Assembly: GCA_027064085.1 (NCBI GenBank)
Contig: JAMOQH010000120.1
Coordinates: forward strand, 1 to 36,708
Direction of reading: 5' to 3'
Length of the DNA stretch: 36,708 nucleotides
From: a bacterium
GTDB lineage: Bacteria > UBP6 > JAFGXH01
The stretch's first letter is position 1, and every line of letters begins with the position of its first letter. A model generated the notes under the pieces. It saw only the letters and a list, made by a program, of their open reading frames with translations. It was not told the origin of the DNA and did not search any database. This document shows positions 1 to 35,270 of the stretch, piece by piece. A program made the position numbers and the translations under genes.

Positions 1-1703
1 AACTTATCTTCTTTAGCTGTAAAAAAGCTATAATCTGGGTCATTCCATACATCATAGAGTCTTCCTGGTGGATAGGACATCATAAAACCACCATATTCGC
101 ATCTTGATATACCTGGGCCAATTATATCTTCTCCTATTCCAGTTGAATAAAAGGTCATATCTGATTCTTGGTCATGTTCACCAAGCCAAGTCATTTTATA
201 TTTATATTTTTTATCATTGGGGTCTGTATCAAAAATAAAAACAACATTTCCTATTTCACCTTGTAGCTTTTCATATTTTTTTACATAAATGCCATCTTGC
301 TTTCTAATTGTTTCTTTAATATCAACACCTTCAAAAAATGATGTCGTAAATTTCTCAGATTTAATTAATTCACTTAATAAATGTCTTTTTGCTCTTAGTT
401 TAATGAAATCAGCAAAGTTTTCAATTATAATATCTTCAGGTTGATGAGAACAAATATTGCTTCTATTAAATTTTTTAGACCAATCTTCTTCTTTTTTTTG
501 CTTTTTTCTCATTTTCATAGGATTTTTAGATGGCCTTTTTTCTCGTTTTCTTATAAACATAGATTTATAATTTTTTAATTCATTAATATCAATTTGTGGT
601 AAAAAGCTTTCTTCTGGTTGATAAGGATAATAAGCTAAAATTTGTATTAATTCCCATGCATAATTGTCATCAATATTTGCTTTTGCCGATTCTATTATTG
701 TAAAATAATCAGGTAAAATTTTATTTTGTAAAATAGATATATTTCTTGCAAATTTAACCATGTTCTTTAATTGCCAAGGATAGAATTCTTCTTTGTATCT
801 TATTTTATATATTTGGGAAGTTGACTTATAAATTTGATATAGCAAACTCCGTCTGTCATAATTTTTAAAATTTAAAAATTCTTTTTCTAAAACCTCTAAA
901 TTATATAATTCTTCAGCGGTTTCTTTATACTTTTCTTCATAATTTCCTTTTTTACCATCTATAACTCCAAAAATCGCCTTAATTTTTTTAACTTTTTCAT
1001 CTTTTTTTAGTTTAAATTTAGTATTTTTACGGTAATTTTCATAAAACCAATTAAAAATTGGATAATCACTTAGTAAAGTACCTAGATTTTGTGGTGCAAG
1101 ACTAAAAAGCTTTGGTTTAGGAGTATAAGAAGCAAAAATAGATATTATATCGTTATCTATATTTTTTATGATTCCATTATAATGTGCAATGCCTACTACG
1201 GCTACAATTTTTTCATTATTCTTAGATAATTTTTTTAAATTATAAGCCATAGACTTTTCTCGTAAATTATCTTGTTTTACCTTTTTAAAATCAAAATTTT
1301 TGTATTTGTTAAAAAAATCTTCCCACGATTCTTGCTCAATAAAGAAATTTTCATAAAAAGGGTCATTGTTTTCATAATATGAAATTGCATCACTATCAAT
1401 AAAGGCTATTTTTTTATTGTTATCTAAGGCAAATCTAATAGCTTCAACAAAAGGGTCTGTTGGTTCAATTAATATATAATATTTTTCTTTATTCCTGCTT
1501 TCATAAGTCAAAATTGTAACTTCAGGGAGAGTTTTTATCCCTTTTATGTAAATATCTCTAGCCCAAGAAGGTAATTCTACTGCTACTATATCAGGATTTA
1601 ATGATAAAAGCATTTTTCTTAATTTTACTGTAAAAAATAATGTTCCATGAAGAACAGGTGCTAGATAAATATTATTTTTTATTTTAAATATATCATAATT
1701 CAT
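1..1703 (-). CDS. Large protein with TraB/ChaN-like N-terminal domain, partial (cut by left edge)
   Basis: Reading the minus strand from an ATG at 1703 gives about 567 codons with no stop up to the window edge, so the C-terminus is missing. Near the N-terminus the protein has HGTLFFTVK, then NPDIVAVELP, a segment EPTDPFVEAIRFA, the element KIAFIDSD, and later VAVVGIAHYNGI. This order (GxxH-like start, PDxVAVEL, acidic-Ala helix, IDxD, VVGxxH) is that of the TraB/PrgY-ChaN-EreA superfamily, to which DUF5682 also seems to belong. The middle is Lys-rich and helical. Near the visible end is a Gly/Pro-rich conserved-looking stretch (GPGISRCEYGG) that I cannot assign. The start lies 20 bases after the MoxR ATPase stop, so the two genes are almost certainly one operon. 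Assignment to the superfamily is by motif reading; function is not established. Confidence 0.7.
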   Translation of the reverse strand, partial: MNYDIFKIKNNIYLAPVLHGTLFFTVKLRKMLLSLNPDIVAVELPSWARDIYIKGIKTLPEVTILTYESRNKEKYYILIEPTDPFVEAIRFALDNNKKIAFIDSDAISYYENNDPFYENFFIEQESWEDFFNKYKNFDFKKVKQDNLREKSMAYNLKKLSKNNEKIVAVVGIAHYNGIIKNIDNDIISIFASYTPKPKLFSLAPQNLGTLLSDYPIFNWFYENYRKNTKFKLKKDEKVKKIKAIFGVIDGKKGNYEEKYKETAEELYNLEVLEKEFLNFKNYDRRSLLYQIYKSTSQIYKIRYKEEFYPWQLKNMVKFARNISILQNKILPDYFTIIESAKANIDDNYAWELIQILAYYPYQPEESFLPQIDINELKNYKSMFIRKREKRPSKNPMKMRKKQKKEEDWSKKFNRSNICSHQPEDIIIENFADFIKLRAKRHLLSELIKSEKFTTSFFEGVDIKETIRKQDGIYVKKYEKLQGEIGNVVFIFDTDPNDKKYKYKMTWLGEHDQESDMTFYSTGIGEDIIGPGISRCEYGGFMMSYPPGRLYDVWNDPDYSFFTAKEDK

Positions 1704-1723
1704 ATAAGTATTAGTTCCTAAAA

Positions 1724-2551
1724 CTATACATAAGGCATAGCATCATCACCGGCAATCATTAAAACAGATTCAGTAAAATGTTTTCTTAATGGTTCACGAG
1801 GGTTTTGCTTTATTCTTTTAGAAATATATCTTCCTATATTAATTCCATCTCTTACAGAAAATTTTTCATCAGCATAATGTGCTTTTTGTAAAAAATTCAC
1901 TATATAGTGAACAATTTTATCATCCGCAAAAGGTAAGAATTCTTTTAAAATCATGTATTCTTCATCTTTATCAGGAAAATCTATCATAATTTGTGGCTGT
2001 AGCCTTGATTGAATGTAATCTGGTATTTCAAAAGTTGAAGCATCATCATTCATGGTTGTTACTATTCTAAAATCTTTATGAGCATGTATTTTTACTCCTG
2101 CAATTATAGATTCAACATATCGTCTATAATCAAGTAATGGAGCTAATGATGCCCATGACTTTTCACTCATTCTATTTCCTTCATCTAAAATACAAACTCC
2201 ACCTTTTACCATGGCGGTAACTAAAGAAGATGCGTGGTAAGAAATTTTATTTCCATCACTTATAATTGGTACAACAAGTAAATCTTCTGGCCTAGTATCC
2301 ACTGTAGCCTGAAAGATATAAATATCTTGTTTTCTGTAGTTTGCAGCAACTGCAGCTAAGGTAGTTTTTCCTACTCCAGGTTTACCAATTAATCTAGGAC
2401 TCATAGGACTGTCTTTTTCATCAACAACCATCCAAGCGGCTAAAAGCTGTGTTAAATACCTCTCTTGACCTATCCATTTTACTTTCATAATATCTGGTTT
2501 TGTTAATTTTATGTCAATCCCATCTATATTTATTATTTCTTTTTTTGCCAT
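1724..2551 (-). CDS. MoxR-type AAA+ ATPase
   Basis: A 275-residue single-domain AAA+ ATPase of the MoxR/CbbQ kind. Visible motifs are Walker A GKPGVGKTT (residues 56-64), Walker B VCILDE (119-124), sensor 1 asparagine N168 in TTMND, and a probable arginine finger R183 in the sequence QSRLQPQ. MoxR ATPases act as remodelling chaperones, normally with VWA-domain partners. Here the next gene downstream is the TraB/ChaN-like protein 20 bases away, and a VWA gene would have to lie beyond the left edge. It is short for the family (usually 300-330 residues) and ends soon after the small lid domain. It has its own consensus-like promoter directly after the histidine kinase stop codon. It is not linked to the DUF58/Bat genes at 32-35 kb, although those are common MoxR partners. 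Confidence 0.88.
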   Translation of the reverse strand: MAKKEIINIDGIDIKLTKPDIMKVKWIGQERYLTQLLAAWMVVDEKDSPMSPRLIGKPGVGKTTLAAVAANYRKQDIYIFQATVDTRPEDLLVVPIISDGNKISYHASSLVTAMVKGGVCILDEGNRMSEKSWASLAPLLDYRRYVESIIAGVKIHAHKDFRIVTTMNDDASTFEIPDYIQSRLQPQIMIDFPDKDEEYMILKEFLPFADDKIVHYIVNFLQKAHYADEKFSVRDGINIGRYISKRIKQNPREPLRKHFTESVLMIAGDDAMPYV

Positions 2552-2583: not shown

Positions 2584-2612
2584 ATTTTACTTATATTGCT
2601 TGAGTATGTCAA
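2584..2612 (-). promoter_or_regulatory. Sigma70-type promoter of the MoxR operon
   Basis: On the minus strand TTGACA (2612-2607), a 17-base spacer and TAAAAT (2589-2584) precede the MoxR gene. The -35 box begins on the base next to the kinase stop codon (2615-2613), so MoxR and its partner can be transcribed independently of the kinase. Confidence 0.7.
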
Positions 2613-6210: not shown

Positions 6211-6278
6211 TATTTAATTAATGACAAATTATTAATTATGTGCTTTAACTCCAAATTTTTATGTTTTTAGGTGGAAAA

Positions 6279-7148
6279 ATGAGATTAGTTATTGAACTTC
6301 AACCAGTATCAGATAGAAATCAATTATCGGATACTATTCAGTTTATGATACCCAAGTTAATAAAGTTTATTATTTCTAGAAGTAAAAATGAAAAGGCTAG
6401 TGTGTATAAGGATAGGAAGATATCAGAATTTTTAAATTATAATTTAAAAATTTCTCCTAAACCTAATATTTACGATAATACGATAATAATTGGTGAGAAC
6501 TATAAGTTAAATCTTACGATATCTAGTTATTCTAATGAAGTTATTGATATTTTGACAGATTCATTAAATAATTTAAATTATGTATTAATTTTAAATCATA
6601 AATTTAAGATTAATAATGTTGAATTACTTGAAATTTCAGACATAGTTACAGATAGAGTAAAGGTAAGACCTCTTTCTCCTATTTTATCAGGAGAAATAAA
6701 AGATGGGAGAAATTTCCCTTTTTACTATAAATGGAATGATAATAATTTTTTTAAAGCTATTATTTCACAAATAAAAGACGAGTATAAAAATATTTTTGGG
6801 GAAGATACTTCAGAATTAGAATTAAAAATTGAATTTGATAAAGGCTATTTGAAGCATCATACTTCTATTACTCAACTTGTTACTGTTCATAAAAGAACCC
6901 AGAAAGCTATTTGGTCTCCAATGTATATCTCTGGTGATAAAAAACTAATAGAGTTTACTCTAGATAGAGGTTTAGGTATTAATAGAGAAATCGGTTATGG
7001 AATGATTGAATCGTATACTCCTAAGAAAAGAGAAAAAATTAATTTGAAAAAGAAGATAAATATTGATGAATTACCAGATAATTTTGGGAATTTAATTGAA
7101 AATAATCCAATTCCCGAAGATGAGGATACTAGAGGATTATATGACTGA
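6279..7148 (+). CDS. Orphan Cas6-like RNA endonuclease family protein (RAMP fold)
   Basis: A 289-residue protein resembling Cas6, the CRISPR pre-crRNA endoribonuclease with two ferredoxin-like (RAMP) domains. Supporting features are the N-terminal strand MRLVIELQP, the mid-protein element VKVRPLSPIL (127-136) like the 'xxLSPIvv' segment of Cas6, and the C-terminal Gly-rich loop RGLGINREIGYGMIE (from about 230), the hallmark of the family. The ATG at 6279 is chosen because AGGTGG lies just upstream and it gives the normal N-terminus; an ATG 18 bases earlier is less likely. There is no histidine before residue 107, although many Cas6 enzymes carry a catalytic His in the first domain. The stop overlaps xseB by eight bases. 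No CRISPR array or other cas gene is in the window, so its RNA target is unknown. It could be a Cas6 serving a distant array or a repurposed RNA-binding protein. Confidence 0.7.
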   Translation: MRLVIELQPVSDRNQLSDTIQFMIPKLIKFIISRSKNEKASVYKDRKISEFLNYNLKISPKPNIYDNTIIIGENYKLNLTISSYSNEVIDILTDSLNNLNYVLILNHKFKINNVELLEISDIVTDRVKVRPLSPILSGEIKDGRNFPFYYKWNDNNFFKAIISQIKDEYKNIFGEDTSELELKIEFDKGYLKHHTSITQLVTVHKRTQKAIWSPMYISGDKKLIEFTLDRGLGINREIGYGMIESYTPKKREKINLKKKINIDELPDNFGNLIENNPIPEDEDTRGLYD

Positions 7149-7338
7149 AAGTAAGAATTTTGAAGAGATTTTAGAAGAGTTGAGGAATCTTGTTGAAAAC
7201 TTAGAATTAGACGAGGTTAGCTTGGAAAGTTCTGTAAAAAACTTTGAAAAGGGAATGGGTTTAATTAAAAAAGCTGAAAATATTTTAACTCAAGCCCAGA
7301 AAAAAATAGAAGTGATAGAGCAAAGCCAAAATAACTAA
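7141..7338 (+). CDS. xseB: Exodeoxyribonuclease VII small subunit
   Basis: A 65-residue protein with the family pattern NFEEILEELRNLVENLE followed by LDEVSLESSVKNFEKGMGLIKKAENIL and a short polar tail. XseB binds the XseA large subunit in the complex that degrades single-stranded DNA to acid-soluble oligonucleotides; the pair helps process damaged DNA. The ATG at 7141 fits the usual family start and length (60-80 residues) and is preceded by AGAGGA. It overlaps the end of the Cas6-like gene by eight bases, so translation is likely coupled. The xseA gene, often adjacent, is not in this window. Confidence 0.9.
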   Translation: MTESKNFEEILEELRNLVENLELDEVSLESSVKNFEKGMGLIKKAENILTQAQKKIEVIEQSQNN

Positions 7339-7350
7339 ATTTTTTGTAAA

Positions 7351-7380
7351 ATCTCCTAAAATCATCCCTAATCATCCCTA
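7351..7380. repeat. Tandem 10-base repeats upstream of the str promoter
   Basis: ATCATCCCTA occurs twice back-to-back (7361-7370, 7371-7380), preceded by a degenerate copy ATCTCCTAAA (7351-7360). The repeat ends about 35 bases before the -35 box of the rpsL promoter. The 10-base period places each copy on the same face of the helix. Confidence 0.55.
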
Positions 7381-7415
7381 AAAGTAGTTTTTTAAAAGCA
7401 TATATTAAAAAATAC

Positions 7416-30022: not shown

Positions 30023-32500
30023 TTAATTAAAGATTAAGAAAGCTCTTAACTCATTGCTTATTTCAAGTAATTTATCTTTATTTGAAATAGTAATATATTT
30101 AATTTTACCCTCATAGTCTTTTTGTAAAATATCTATGTCAGTTAGCATTTTTATACAATTTTCAAATTTATTTTTATTTATTGATTCTTCATAATGAAAA
30201 TCAGAAATTCTTTTTCTAGCGGTATTAACAATATTAGATAGAAGGGTTCTATAGTTTTCTCTTTTATTCAATTTGATTAATTCACTAATACAAAATGAAT
30301 ATGCTTCTATAAACGGCATTAATATTGAGAAATAAAATTCGGGATTAAGATTTTTTGTAGCTCTATTTATTGTTATTGTATTATTTTCTTTTTTAAGGAT
30401 ATTTCTTTCAACCATATCTGTTAAAGTTTGTATGAAATTAATTTCATATTTATCATTAGGATTAAATATAAATTCATCTTGAAATATCAAACTTAAAAAT
30501 TTAGTATTCTTTTTTATATCTACTTTATTTGATGATTTTTTAACTGCAAAAATTAATAATGATTCATTTGTGAAATAGTGTAAAATATTATTTTTATAGT
30601 ATTCTATATTTGCTCTTTTAGAATTTAAAAGTTCATAAGTTTCAAGTTTTTCATCTATTAATACAATGTGTTTATTAGAAATGAAAAAATCTAATGCTTC
30701 TTCAAGTGCAAGGACAGGAGTAACTAATGTTTTTGAAAGAGGAGCTGCTTTTTTACTTAATTCTTTATGTACTGTTAAAAAATTTCCTAAAATATCGCTA
30801 AAATCAAACTTTTCTTTACTGTGTTCAGATAATAGTATTGTTCCAAGTATTGAAGATGCTGTAACGATTGATGTTTTATTTATACTATCTAGTATTTGAT
30901 ATGATACTTTATTTAAATGATATGAAATTACTTCTTCATTTGGTTTTTTTTCTGCGATTTTATTTTTTTTAAAATAATCATCTAGTTTTATTGCATTCGA
31001 AAATCTTATATAAACTTTACCAAAACGAGATTTTAATAACTTTCTATTACTTAATATTACATTTAAATTTTCTTTTTTCTTTTCTCCACCAGATAATTCA
31101 TTTACATAAGATTTTTCTTCAATAATTTTTTCATAATTAATTGCAACAGGTAATATTGCAATTTTTTTATTTATATTTTCCCAAAAGGAGTCAAAAAACA
31201 TTGATAACATCCCTGTTTTAGGTGGAAGCAATTTTCCTGTTCTACTACGAGTGCCTTCAATAAAGAATTCAATACTAAATCTATCTTTTAATAATTTAGA
31301 AAGATATTGTTTAAAAATTGTATAGTAAAATTCATCATGCCTAAAGCTTCTTTTTAGGAAAAATGCACCACTTCTTCTAAAAATATATCCCATTGGAAAA
31401 AATGCTAAGTTATCTCCTGCTGCAATATGTGGGGGAACAAGTCCTTTTAAGTAAAAAATATATGAAAGAACTAAGTAATCAATATGACTTTTATGAGAAG
31501 GAGCAAGTATTACTGTATGTGTTTTGAGTAATTCCTTTAATTTAATAATATCTTCATCTGGAATATCAATTTCACTATATAGTTTTGAAAAGACAAAACT
31601 TAAAGTTTTAACAAATTTTTGTATCATTGAAACATGATAATCAGCTGCAATTTTCTTTAAAATTTCTTTTGCTTTTTTTTCAGAATCAATTATACTTTTT
31701 TTCTTGAGTTTTGCTCTCTTTTTTATTGCATTTTGAATAACAGGCATTTTTATTATTTGCTCTATGTTGATATTTGGTTTTCTTATTGCTGGACCTGTAA
31801 TAATTTGAACTTCTTTTTCAAGTTTGAATAATATTTTAGCTTCTAAAGATTCTGCTAAATCAATATCAGATTTCTTAGGATTATTTTTTATAAAATCTAA
31901 TAAATTTATTGGTTCTAAAATTGACGAATAAGCATTTTTATAGTTTTTCATTAATTGATAAGATATTTTTATAAAATTATTAGATTTATTACCTTTTATT
32001 AACTTTTTAATGTTTTCAGGAGATTTTTCCAAAATTAATAGTTCTGGAAGAAAAATAATTTCTTTTTTAGTACTTTTTTGATATTTTACAATTTCCAAAA
32101 GAGGACTTTCTTTAAAATCAGTATTCCTTAATCCTAAAAACTTTGATTTTCTTAAGAAAATCATTGGTATTTTGTTTTTATCAAGAGTTTCAATTAATTT
32201 GTTTTTATTATTTCTCTCAATTTTATCTAAAGTTTTATTAAATAAACTTGTTGGAGTTTCCCATAAAAATGTTTTTAATTCATTTACATAGGATATTTGA
32301 TTTAATTTTAATGTACTTAAATTGTAATTAACATAAAGGTATTCTATAAAATCAACATTTTTAGCGATAAATACAGTTATTTTATTATTATCTTGATTTT
32401 CTTTTATTATATTTAAGTAATCATTTGTTTTATTTATTTTAGAAAGGTAATTATTGAAAAAACTATCTAAAATAAAACCATGTTTAAATTCTTTACTCAT
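30023..32500 (-). CDS. plsB: Glycerol-3-phosphate acyltransferase PlsB
   Basis: An 825-residue PlsB, which acylates sn-glycerol-3-phosphate at position 1 using acyl-CoA or acyl-ACP, the first step of phospholipid synthesis at the inner membrane. Block I is PSHKSHIDYL (H336-x4-D341), block II PMGYIFRRSGAFFLKR, block III EFFIEGTRSRTGK (411-423), and block IV AILPVAINYEKI. The segment LKGLVPPHIAAGDNLAFFP is nearly as in E. coli PlsB (807 residues). The N-terminal 280 residues are divergent and Lys-rich. It overlaps the Bat-like gene by eight bases. PlsB in an operon with membrane channels and a DUF58/Bat pair is unusual. Confidence in the enzyme is high. Confidence 0.95.
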   Translation of the reverse strand: MSKEFKHGFILDSFFNNYLSKINKTNDYLNIIKENQDNNKITVFIAKNVDFIEYLYVNYNLSTLKLNQISYVNELKTFLWETPTSLFNKTLDKIERNNKNKLIETLDKNKIPMIFLRKSKFLGLRNTDFKESPLLEIVKYQKSTKKEIIFLPELLILEKSPENIKKLIKGNKSNNFIKISYQLMKNYKNAYSSILEPINLLDFIKNNPKKSDIDLAESLEAKILFKLEKEVQIITGPAIRKPNINIEQIIKMPVIQNAIKKRAKLKKKSIIDSEKKAKEILKKIAADYHVSMIQKFVKTLSFVFSKLYSEIDIPDEDIIKLKELLKTHTVILAPSHKSHIDYLVLSYIFYLKGLVPPHIAAGDNLAFFPMGYIFRRSGAFFLKRSFRHDEFYYTIFKQYLSKLLKDRFSIEFFIEGTRSRTGKLLPPKTGMLSMFFDSFWENINKKIAILPVAINYEKIIEEKSYVNELSGGEKKKENLNVILSNRKLLKSRFGKVYIRFSNAIKLDDYFKKNKIAEKKPNEEVISYHLNKVSYQILDSINKTSIVTASSILGTILLSEHSKEKFDFSDILGNFLTVHKELSKKAAPLSKTLVTPVLALEEALDFFISNKHIVLIDEKLETYELLNSKRANIEYYKNNILHYFTNESLLIFAVKKSSNKVDIKKNTKFLSLIFQDEFIFNPNDKYEINFIQTLTDMVERNILKKENNTITINRATKNLNPEFYFSILMPFIEAYSFCISELIKLNKRENYRTLLSNIVNTARKRISDFHYEESINKNKFENCIKMLTDIDILQKDYEGKIKYITISNKDKLLEISNELRAFLIFN

Positions 32501-34361
32501 CTTTTACCCACAAAAAGCGTTTTACGAAAAATAATGTTTCTAAAAATATCATAAACATAAATACCATTATAAACCAATTTTTTAAAGGAATCAATAAATT
32601 ATTATTTGCAATTAAATCTAATGCCTTTTTATTTTTGATTATTAGTAAATTTGAACGATTTAGTTGTGAATTATAAGCAATTTTATTATGGTGTTGATAA
32701 ATTCCTGTTTTTAAATATTTTAAATCGTATTTGAAGTTTTCCAGATTTGATAAATCGGTTAAATAAAATTTATATATATTTAAATTGTCTTCTAATAAAT
32801 ATTTTATTATTGAAATAATTAAAGGAGCATAATTGGTTGATAACGGAAAATTGTTCCAATCTCTATCAACACTTGATGTATAAATAATTAATTTTCCTTT
32901 TTTTAATAACTTCTCTGCTATAAATGGAGTTCCATCATTTAAAGAAGCAATTATTTTAATATTCTGTTTAGTTGATAAGTTGAAATATTTATAAACAGGA
33001 TATGCTGATAGTTGATTCTTAACAAATAAAATATTTTTAAAAAATTTGTAATCATAATTAAAAAAATTAACAAATTTATATTTTTTTGTTTTTTCCATAT
33101 TTTTAAAATTTCTTAATGAAATTATATCTTTCCAGAAATAATTAAAATTTTTAATATTTGTATTACTACCCAAGGATATAAAAACTGATTTTCCTGATTT
33201 TAAGTATTCTGAAATAGCATATTGATTTTCATAATCATCAAAAATATTGTTTAAAAATATAATTAAATCATATTTTTTTATACTCTTACTTGTGATCCAT
33301 GATTTTTGTGTTAAATTAAATTTATATTTTTCATTACTACTATTTAAGGCATTCTTTAGATAAAAAGATTCATCTTGATATGATATAGTACTTGTTGAGC
33401 CATTTACAATTAAAATTTCTTTGGGCTTTATAGTATTTATAATAAAAAACTTGTAATTATCATAATTTAAATTATCAGATTCTAGTTGAAGTTTATATTT
33501 CTGTTCATTTGATTGTTTTTTTTCTTTTTTATCTCTTAAAACAGTGAAATTCATCATAATTTCTTTTGATGAATTTGGAGCTAATGTGATTATAGATGAA
33601 GATAGTTTATTATTATTTTGATATAAAGTTATTTTTTTAGTTTGCTTATTTGTTGAAGATGATTTTATTAATACTTTAAGTTGGTAACGGTTATATTCAA
33701 TTCTTTTTATTTTTAATTCTTTTATAAAAAAGTTATCTATATTTTTATGTTTAATTAATGAATATTTTATATTAGATGTATTTTTAGTGTCTTGATAATT
33801 TGATACAACAATTACTTTTTTATTTTTAAATTTATTTTTGTTTTTGATAAATTCAGAAATTGTGCTGTATTGGTAGTTATATGTAATTTTAATTTTATTT
33901 AGCAGATTATTTAATTGTGAAACAGAAACTATTATATGTTCTTTCCCATTATAAAATATAGAATTGGAATTAGGATTATTCTGAAAAAATGTTCTTATAA
34001 TTTCTTTAGCATTTTCAAAATCATTTTTTGATTTATCTGTTTTCAAAAGCATTTGATAATTATTATCTAAAACAATCATAGTATTATTATTGCTTTTAAA
34101 TGAAATTGAATTTTCTTTTTTCTTTATGGAGATATTTGTAATCAAAAAGATTATTGATAGTAAAACCAACAGCCTTAATAAAAATAAGATAAATTCCTTA
34201 ATTTTTAGTTTTTTTGATATTTTTTTATGTGATTTCAATATAAATATTAAACTTGGAAATTCAACTTCTTTAATGTTTTTTCTTTTTATTAAGTGAAATA
34301 GTATCAGGATTCCAATGGAGAGTAAAGAATATAAAAATAAACTATGCTTAAATAAAAACAT
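32493..34361 (-). CDS. BatA-like membrane protein with degenerate VWA and GATase-like region
   Basis: A 622-residue protein. The N-terminal double-transmembrane BatA module is clear: helix about 6-24, the motif VEFPSLIFI (33-41), basic loop, then LRLLVLLSIIFLI (about 62-74). After it comes a VWA-like start MIVLDNNYQML (95-105) in which the MIDAS serines are missing (D-N-N-Y-Q instead of DxSxS). A beta-rich middle resembles a carbohydrate-binding or Ig-like domain. The region KPKEILIVNGSTS...YDLIIFLN...SGKSVFISLGSN resembles the class-I glutamine-amidotransferase-like domain found in this family, without a visible catalytic Cys triad. A C-terminal membrane helix (about 594-614) ends the protein. 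Its ATG follows the DUF58 stop directly. Confidence 0.82.
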   Translation of the reverse strand: MFLFKHSLFLYSLLSIGILILFHLIKRKNIKEVEFPSLIFILKSHKKISKKLKIKEFILFLLRLLVLLSIIFLITNISIKKKENSISFKSNNNTMIVLDNNYQMLLKTDKSKNDFENAKEIIRTFFQNNPNSNSIFYNGKEHIIVSVSQLNNLLNKIKITYNYQYSTISEFIKNKNKFKNKKVIVVSNYQDTKNTSNIKYSLIKHKNIDNFFIKELKIKRIEYNRYQLKVLIKSSSTNKQTKKITLYQNNNKLSSSIITLAPNSSKEIMMNFTVLRDKKEKKQSNEQKYKLQLESDNLNYDNYKFFIINTIKPKEILIVNGSTSTISYQDESFYLKNALNSSNEKYKFNLTQKSWITSKSIKKYDLIIFLNNIFDDYENQYAISEYLKSGKSVFISLGSNTNIKNFNYFWKDIISLRNFKNMEKTKKYKFVNFFNYDYKFFKNILFVKNQLSAYPVYKYFNLSTKQNIKIIASLNDGTPFIAEKLLKKGKLIIYTSSVDRDWNNFPLSTNYAPLIISIIKYLLEDNLNIYKFYLTDLSNLENFKYDLKYLKTGIYQHHNKIAYNSQLNRSNLLIIKNKKALDLIANNNLLIPLKNWFIMVFMFMIFLETLFFVKRFLWVKDE

Positions 34362-35219
34362 TTATATACCAAATAAATTTAATATATTTAACTTAATATC
34401 TTCATCTGTATTAACAAGTATATATTTCATATTATTTCCTAAAAGCGTTTTTGATATGTTTCCATTATGGCGTTTTAATTCTTCAAGATATATCTTTTTT
34501 ATTGTTAATGGTTCGGTTACTAAGGTTTTATAGTTTTCCATATCTTTAAATCTAACTATCCCTTTGTAATTAAATTCTAGTTCTGCTCTGGTTAAAGTTT
34601 GTATAAAATAGAAGTCATAGTTAAGGGCTTTCATTTTTTTTATTTCTTTAAGCAAATCATCTGTTTCATACATAAAATCTGAAATTATAAAAATAGTACT
34701 GTTCTTTGTTTCCTTAATTTCTTGTATTATGGATAATTTTTTAATGATATTAATGTTTTTTTCTTCTTTTATTAGGTTTAACAAAATAGGAAAATCATTT
34801 GTTTGTTTTTTAAATCCCGAAAAATCATTATTTGAAACAAGAGATACTCCTGATTTACTTAAAAATATAATATGGCTTAGCACTCCAAATAATAATACTG
34901 AATAATCAAATTTGCTAATACTTGTATCTTTAAAATTCATGCTATTGGTAGAATCAACAATAAATATAGCATTACTATTGCTTTCGCTGTGGAATTTTTT
35001 AGTGTATAATTTTTCTGTTCTGGCATATTGTTTCCAGTCTATATTTTTTATTGAATCCCCTTCAATGTAGTTGTTATACTGATTAAATTCTATGGATTGT
35101 CCATTTTGATTAAATAATAAATCCCCATTTGAAAATAATTTTTTTGATGCTTTTTTTATTAGCTCTTCCTGTGGAATACTTTCTAATATATTATAAATCT
35201 TATTTAAATACTTTTCCAA
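34362..35219 (-). CDS. DUF58 (VWA-related) protein
   Basis: A protein of about 285 residues. The DUF58 signature is present: EFNQYNNYIEGDSIKNIDWKQYARTEKLYTKKFH (about 44-77), matching the pattern EFxxYxxYxxGDxxRxIDWxxxART. The VWA-type MIDAS-like motif DSTNS follows (89-93), and FIISDFMYE is a later VWA strand. DUF58 proteins usually work with MoxR ATPases and Bat proteins. I put the start at TTG 35219, preceded by GGGTG with five bases to the codon; an in-frame TTG at 35270 lies inside the -35 box of the promoter and cannot be the start. First gene of the six-gene operon. Confidence 0.85.
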   Translation of the reverse strand: MEKYLNKIYNILESIPQEELIKKASKKLFSNGDLLFNQNGQSIEFNQYNNYIEGDSIKNIDWKQYARTEKLYTKKFHSESNSNAIFIVDSTNSMNFKDTSISKFDYSVLLFGVLSHIIFLSKSGVSLVSNNDFSGFKKQTNDFPILLNLIKEEKNINIIKKLSIIQEIKETKNSTIFIISDFMYETDDLLKEIKKMKALNYDFYFIQTLTRAELEFNYKGIVRFKDMENYKTLVTEPLTIKKIYLEELKRHNGNISKTLLGNNMKYILVNTDEDIKLNILNLFGI

Positions 35220-35241
35220 ACATTCACCCAAATAATAACTA

Positions 35242-35270
35242 TATATATAATAGTAACTATAAATAGTCAA
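35242..35270 (-). promoter_or_regulatory. Promoter of the DUF58-PlsB-CrcB operon
   Basis: On the minus strand TTGACT (35270-35265), 17 bases, TATATA (35247-35242). The predicted start of transcription is about 15-20 bases before the DUF58 TTG, which gives a very short leader. Confidence 0.6.

Follow-up and report, generated by a model that had tools for sequence, protein, structure and literature searches.

The window, a stretch of 36,708 nucleotides that starts with the first base of contig C120 in a host assembly of 3.65 Mb and 195 contigs, opens with two adjoining reverse-strand genes, here called M (positions 1724–2551), for a MoxR-type AAA+ ATPase, and B (positions 3–1703), for its partner protein. 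Genomic comparisons strongly support the view that M and B are obligate partners with a shared inheritance across several bacterial phyla, and we put the chance that they make up a two-component cytoplasmic remodelling machine of the MoxR type, with B as the obligate partner, at about one in two.

The M gene encodes 275 amino acids matching the AAA_5 family (E = 3.5e-17) and retains intact AAA+ motifs (Walker A GKPGVGKTT, Walker B CILDEG, the TMN sensor and the arginine of SRLQP) that are invariant across 23 M sequences. The window protein and its Nitrospina counterpart are 57% identical. Chains of Midasin, CbbQ and NorQ were the PDB matches of the M profile, which gave other MoxR paralogues 30–44 bits, the MoxR proteins linked to DUF5682 11–17 bits and YehL −1.9 bits. 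Given these low scores for the DUF5682-linked proteins and YehL, M is, judging from the profiles, a distinct MoxR subfamily of its own and not of the YehL type, and any resemblance to the Escherichia coli yehLMPQ genes consequently sits in the partner domain and not in the ATPase. A sequence-only reading of the window had described a MoxR ATPase with its own promoter; the ATPase holds, and the putative promoter (TTGACA-17-TAAAAT, 2584–2612, reverse strand, 11 of 12 consensus matches) is the best promoter-like match in the region by consensus alone and just suggestive, because 12 such sites were found against 7.1 expected. Stop-to-stop frames of 963–1168 amino acids in some Nitrospirota were considered as M fusions and dismissed after four loci had been followed up.

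Downstream of M on the same strand, across the gap of 20 bases (1704–1723) given by the sequence-only reading, lies B, with 567 amino acids visible and its 3′ end cut by the contig end. Relatives of B are 599–644 amino acids long, and the window protein would therefore be short of roughly its last 70 residues. It is 49–51% identical to its homologues in two genomes from the family of the window genome (G001 and G002) and 30% identical to the Nitrospina protein. Searches of Pfam, NCBIfam and PADLOC assigned B to no family at cut-off; the weak Pfam matches of some members (Ribonuclease_T2, RolB_RolC and others) were judged to be due to chance. Neither M nor B contains a hydrophobic segment.

A scan of a one-genome-per-species collection with the single window B protein returned no matches; a profile scan located relatives of this protein, still without a family name, at 487 places. 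The best 80 of these 487 lie in Nitrospinota, Nitrospirota, Planctomycetota and Omnitrophota; 61 of these loci include M, and several of the other 19 are contig edges. B is carried by 56 of 77 Nitrospinota genomes (26 of the 31 good ones), and M stands directly upstream of B on the same strand in all 20 Nitrospinota regions fetched as well as at the Nitrospina locus (L012). There is usually one M-B copy per genome, and where B is diverged, so is M.

The association was followed in three surveys. The link between MoxR gene and partner proved conserved, so that neither of the two outcomes named by the sequence-only reading as refuting its view, a lack of significant TraB/ChaN profile matches and a lack of linkage in other genomes, came about. 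Among 294 Planctomycetota genomes, B was found in 45, M in 47 and both in 45; among 245 Nitrospirota, B was found in 36 (full-length in 35), M in 35 and both in 35; and among 41 relatives of the window genome the same four carried both genes. Fisher tests of co-occurrence gave p = 4e-51, 3e-43 (full-length B) and 1e-5, respectively, values that overstate the evidence given that the genomes are related and share ancestry within phyla. Kinship as a confounder is weakened because the pattern persists where the two genes are unlinked: in 10 planctomycete genomes over 200 kb of a single contig separate M from B, in G001 and G002 the two lie on different contigs, and a set of 12 genomes with many unlinked B genes holds exactly one M per genome. 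Over the three surveys only 2 of 86 M-positive genomes were without B, and full-length B without M occurred in none. Distances between B proteins and between M proteins were also highly correlated (Mantel r = 0.95), of which shared descent alone accounts for part.

A few genomes depart from this pattern. Two (G134 and G280, loci L207 and L208) are the sole M-positive genomes in which B was not detected, with an intact M and no B in the fetched surroundings. In the Nitrospirota genome G612, only the first ~150 residues of B are left, and M is absent at the same spot; this N-terminal remnant (6798–7415 in locus L205, G612:C1:1632000-1646000) directly precedes ligA, as if the two genes had decayed together at the locus usual for Nitrospirota. 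Four further genomes (G428–G430 and G433) have B without M, with the B gene at a contig start; the simplest reading is that the contig ends there and that M probably sits in the assembly gap.

The N-terminal part of B (1143–1703, reverse strand) was assigned to the TraB/ChaN/EreA/TIKI type by hhalign to DUF5682 and by structural matches. It carries four motifs, VLHG, VAVELP, FIDSD and VVGIAH, containing H19 (codon 1647–1649), E43 (1575–1577), D103 (1395–1397) and H174 (1182–1184, all on the reverse strand). They correspond to the GxxH-, PDxVAVEL-, IDxD- and VVGxxH-like motifs picked out by the sequence-only reading, and are not a product of chance, being invariant in the two nearest relatives of the window protein at an identity of just 49–51%. 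An alignment led by the window B matched DUF5682 over window residues 11–182 (E = 1.1e-12, probability 97.8%) and one led by Nitrospinota did so at E = 2e-9, against about 0.4 (negative) for reversed controls, 0.42 in the window-led case; moreover, the four positions of DUF5682 that pair with H19, E43, D103 and H174 are unvarying in 19 of 19 proteins. Profile comparison thus makes the N-terminal domain a diverged relative of DUF5682/YehM. Scored against single Pfam models, the window protein stays under the curated cut-offs, with 14.1 bits for PF18934 (DUF5682, cut-off 26 bits) and 17 bits for TraB_PrgY_gumN (E = 0.0055, cut-off 26.8); with E values up to 1 allowed, PF18934 matched just 5 of 20 members of the window's subfamily (subfamily I, see below), at best with E = 0.0033.

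For structural comparison we used a model of the Nitrospina B (pLDDT 87, pTM 0.75). The best matches of model residues 1–188 were chains of ciliate complex IV (Z = 9.2–10), with HopBA1 at Z = 6.5 and a TIKI-fold toxin domain at Z = 5.7. Ciliate complex IV holds a TraB-family protein (PMC10060162), for which the matched chain DQ is a candidate, and EreC, ChaN, HopBA1 and the toxin domain have been grouped in one fold (PMC7979712; PMC6254334). Foldseek alone gave no match to the B model with E below 0.001, and the fold assignment therefore leans on agreement between two methods. With these structures as its best matches the domain is predicted to adopt a TraB/ChaN/EreA/TIKI-type fold, and of the kinships for which the sequence-only reading had asked a profile check, that with DUF5682 is upheld by the hhalign result and that with TraB/ChaN is favoured by the model. 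Its broader description of B as a diverged DUF5682-type protein survives for this domain and fails for the C-terminal half, which found no match in DUF5682 by profile comparison.

Just after an insertion in the window protein lies a helical bundle (630–812, reverse strand, approximate limits) whose resemblance to AAA+ lids is only suggestive: model residues 237–314 superpose on the lid of BchI with Z = 6.7 (68 residues, rmsd 2.6), which is below the tool's safe level for helical bundles. The bundle is also collinear with helical segments of DUF5682, but the comparison reaches E of about 0.3 on its own and homology is not claimed. The most conserved segment of B by column entropy, SEKFTTSFFEGVDIKETIRKQDGIYVKK (276–359, reverse strand, window residues 449–476), corresponds to model residues 416–450, with a mean of 0.74 bits against 1.2–2.1 bits elsewhere in the protein, and has at the same time the lowest model confidence (pLDDT about 47–61). 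This combination fits a loop that becomes ordered upon binding, and the segment is a candidate flexible handle or partner-binding loop. Closer to the C-terminus, the Gly/Pro-rich motif that the sequence-only reading had remarked on, GEDIIGPGISRCEYGGFMMSYPPG (63–137, reverse strand), proved to be real and to rank with the family's best-conserved stretches, its GPG, YGG and PP being nearly or fully invariant. Modelled separately (pLDDT 80), the C-terminal half had no Foldseek match below 0.001 and Z scores of 5.5 at most, some of them to RNase H-like folds and not usable; such a missing structural match of a predicted model does not show a new fold.

B proteins fall into two subfamilies according to the His-Glu-Asp-His quartet. 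In subfamily I it is kept by 22 of 23 members, namely the window protein, those of G001 and G002, one Nitrospirota protein (G441) and 18 of 19 diverged planctomycete proteins. The 54 members of subfamily II, the clade that includes the Nitrospinota, Nitrospirota and Omnitrophota proteins, have His-[Pro/Ala/Cys/Gly/Ser]-Asp-[Asp, rarely His] instead, none of them having the Glu and hardly any the second His; in one of them Tyr replaces the first His. Subfamily II occupies one side of a single, fully supported branch in a tree built with the four trait columns left in, a minor flaw. As DUF5682 also has an intact quartet, loss is the likely direction of change, and the quartet was probably lost once, in this clade, with the M partner retained. 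Since these proteins lost the quartet and yet kept M, M's need of B does not seem to concern that site alone. A subfamily I protein from G133 (locus L211) has a degraded quartet, Pro-Glu-Asp-Leu, possibly a second, independent loss.

A VWA gene to the left of position 1 had been expected by the sequence-only reading, as part of a MoxR-DUF5682-VWA arrangement. No VWA or other third gene was found conserved beside B or M in relatives with complete loci, including G001 and G002, where B is complete and no VWA gene adjoins either gene; this, together with an M that is not YehL-like, leaves both expectations unsupported. The neighbours of M and B, as read from sequence, vary by lineage and have housekeeping roles: in Nitrospirota ligA lies downstream, planctomycetes have ribF, and another group has a dehydrogenase-like gene upstream. 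True DUF5682 loci in planctomycetes have the order MoxR-DUF5682-VWA_CoxE, the same families as yehL-yehM-yehP-yehQ of E. coli K-12. Some planctomycete genomes, among them Pan216 (G118) and G152, have a DUF5682 gene in addition to the B-M pair, and the two systems are therefore not interchangeable alternatives. A literature search for DUF5682 returned no papers, and one for YehM together with YehL returned two genome reports only.

Elsewhere in the window two loci were noted by eye. The 295 amino acid product of 6261–7148 (forward strand), adjoining an xseB-like gene, resembles a Cas6-like CRISPR RNA endonuclease in its C-terminal GLGINREIGYGMIE and its layout. On the reverse strand, 32493–35270 holds a DUF58-like gene followed by one for a BatA-like membrane protein. 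Such proteins are the usual partners of another MoxR ATPase; here there is no MoxR gene directly upstream of the pair and a SplB-like gene on the opposite strand instead.

MoxR ATPases are commonly thought to act through VWA partners, whose genes are usually, though not universally, found next to theirs. In the remodelling machine that we favour, M would form an ATP-driven AAA+ ring in physical complex with B, and B would bind the client and couple it to the ring, doing the job that the VWA proteins CbbO, NorD, ViaA and CoxE do for other MoxR ATPases. Since the C-terminal domain of B matched no known fold, this adaptor role is drawn by analogy with the VWA partners. B would combine a TIKI-fold domain, ancestrally a catalytic or ligand-binding site, with a helical bundle like an AAA lid and with a C-terminal domain peculiar to the family, in which one flexible segment is almost invariant; the client, on this view, would be a housekeeping protein and not an invader. 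It is established for MoxR ATPases generally that a ring remodels a client which a partner protein holds (PMC7159879). A bolder version, which we hold tentatively and think somewhat less probable, is that B-M constitutes a separate class of MoxR machine: a TIKI-fold protein would stand in for the VWA co-chaperone, the machine would serve a core process of nitrite oxidisers and planctomycetes, and the TIKI domain would have turned once from enzyme into pure adaptor.

The main rival, unlikely though still to be taken seriously, is an ATP-controlled hydrolase in subfamily I, where the TIKI-fold domain of B would be an esterase or peptidase with an EreC-like His-Glu-His site, M would control access of the substrate and the quartet-lost subfamily would be a regulatory pseudoenzyme. 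The near-constancy of the quartet in subfamily I and its counterpart in DUF5682 speak for such activity, as do EreC, which uses H50, E78 and H289 (PMC7979712) in the same order as the His/Glu/His of window-subfamily B, and a TIKI endopeptidase whose 2His/2Glu set is essential (PMC6254334). However, motifs alone do not amount to activity, conservation in B peaks in the C-terminal half and not in the TIKI-like domain, and the 54 subfamily II proteins keep M without the Glu and, nearly all, without the second His. We regard as rather improbable a diverged YehL-YehM-YehP type of system, with B as a shortened YehM and a VWA protein that could be encoded elsewhere as the third partner: although the N-terminal domain is related to DUF5682, DUF5682 loci carry MoxR and VWA_CoxE genes and the helical segments are collinear (if not significantly so on their own), a VWA gene adjoined B or M in none of the lineages examined, M belongs to a different MoxR subfamily, the C-terminal halves do not match, and Pan216 and G152 hold both systems.

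The recurrence of MoxR ATPases in proposed planctomycete conflict systems (PMC7159879) would agree with a conflict or anti-phage role akin to the MoxR-vWA ternary systems, a possibility also raised by the sequence-only reading. This now appears very unlikely for a pair that is usually single-copy, near-universal in Nitrospinota and flanked by housekeeping genes such as ligA, and in which variable effector domains were not seen; among the PADLOC models, B had no match and M had only weak generic AAA ones. The least credible of the explanations, to which we give hardly any weight, is that M and B are functionally separate genes that merely share descent; vertical inheritance of both within phyla would make part of the Mantel correlation expected, but it fits poorly with surveys in which M so rarely occurs without B and full-length B never without M, unlinked cases included.

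M-B can be described as a two-gene MoxR system without a VWA gene; because the two genes co-occur almost absolutely, their partnership could be put to a direct test with just the two purified proteins. With quartet-intact and quartet-lost subfamilies both tied to M, the system also lets one ask where the ATPase acts on B. Among known systems, the TraB/ChaN/EreA/TIKI superfamily (EreC, ChaN, HopBA1 and the TraB-family subunit of ciliate complex IV) resembles B in the predicted fold of residues 1–188 and, in the window's subfamily, in the His-Glu-...-His order, but in B this domain is joined to a helical bundle and to a C-terminal domain of a unique kind, B is cytoplasmic and MoxR-paired, and a large subclade lacks the catalytic Glu and second His. 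CbbQ-CbbO, NorQ-NorD and RavA-ViaA resemble M-B as two-component assemblies of a MoxR protein and a dedicated partner, CbbQ and NorQ being also among the PDB chains matched by the M profile; in contrast to these pairs, B has a predicted TIKI-fold domain and no recognised VWA domain, and M-B is without a metabolic operon context. YehL-YehM-YehP(-YehQ) of E. coli comprises MoxR, DUF5682, VWA_CoxE and SWIM proteins, whereas M-B has no VWA or SWIM gene and a different MoxR subfamily, and B (about 600–640 amino acids against about 760 in YehM) has an unrelated C-terminal half. In both, nevertheless, a MoxR gene immediately precedes that of a large protein with a related N-terminal domain and the same His-Glu-Asp-His order, and M-B may be seen as a simpler relative of the long-unexplained yehLMPQ operon.
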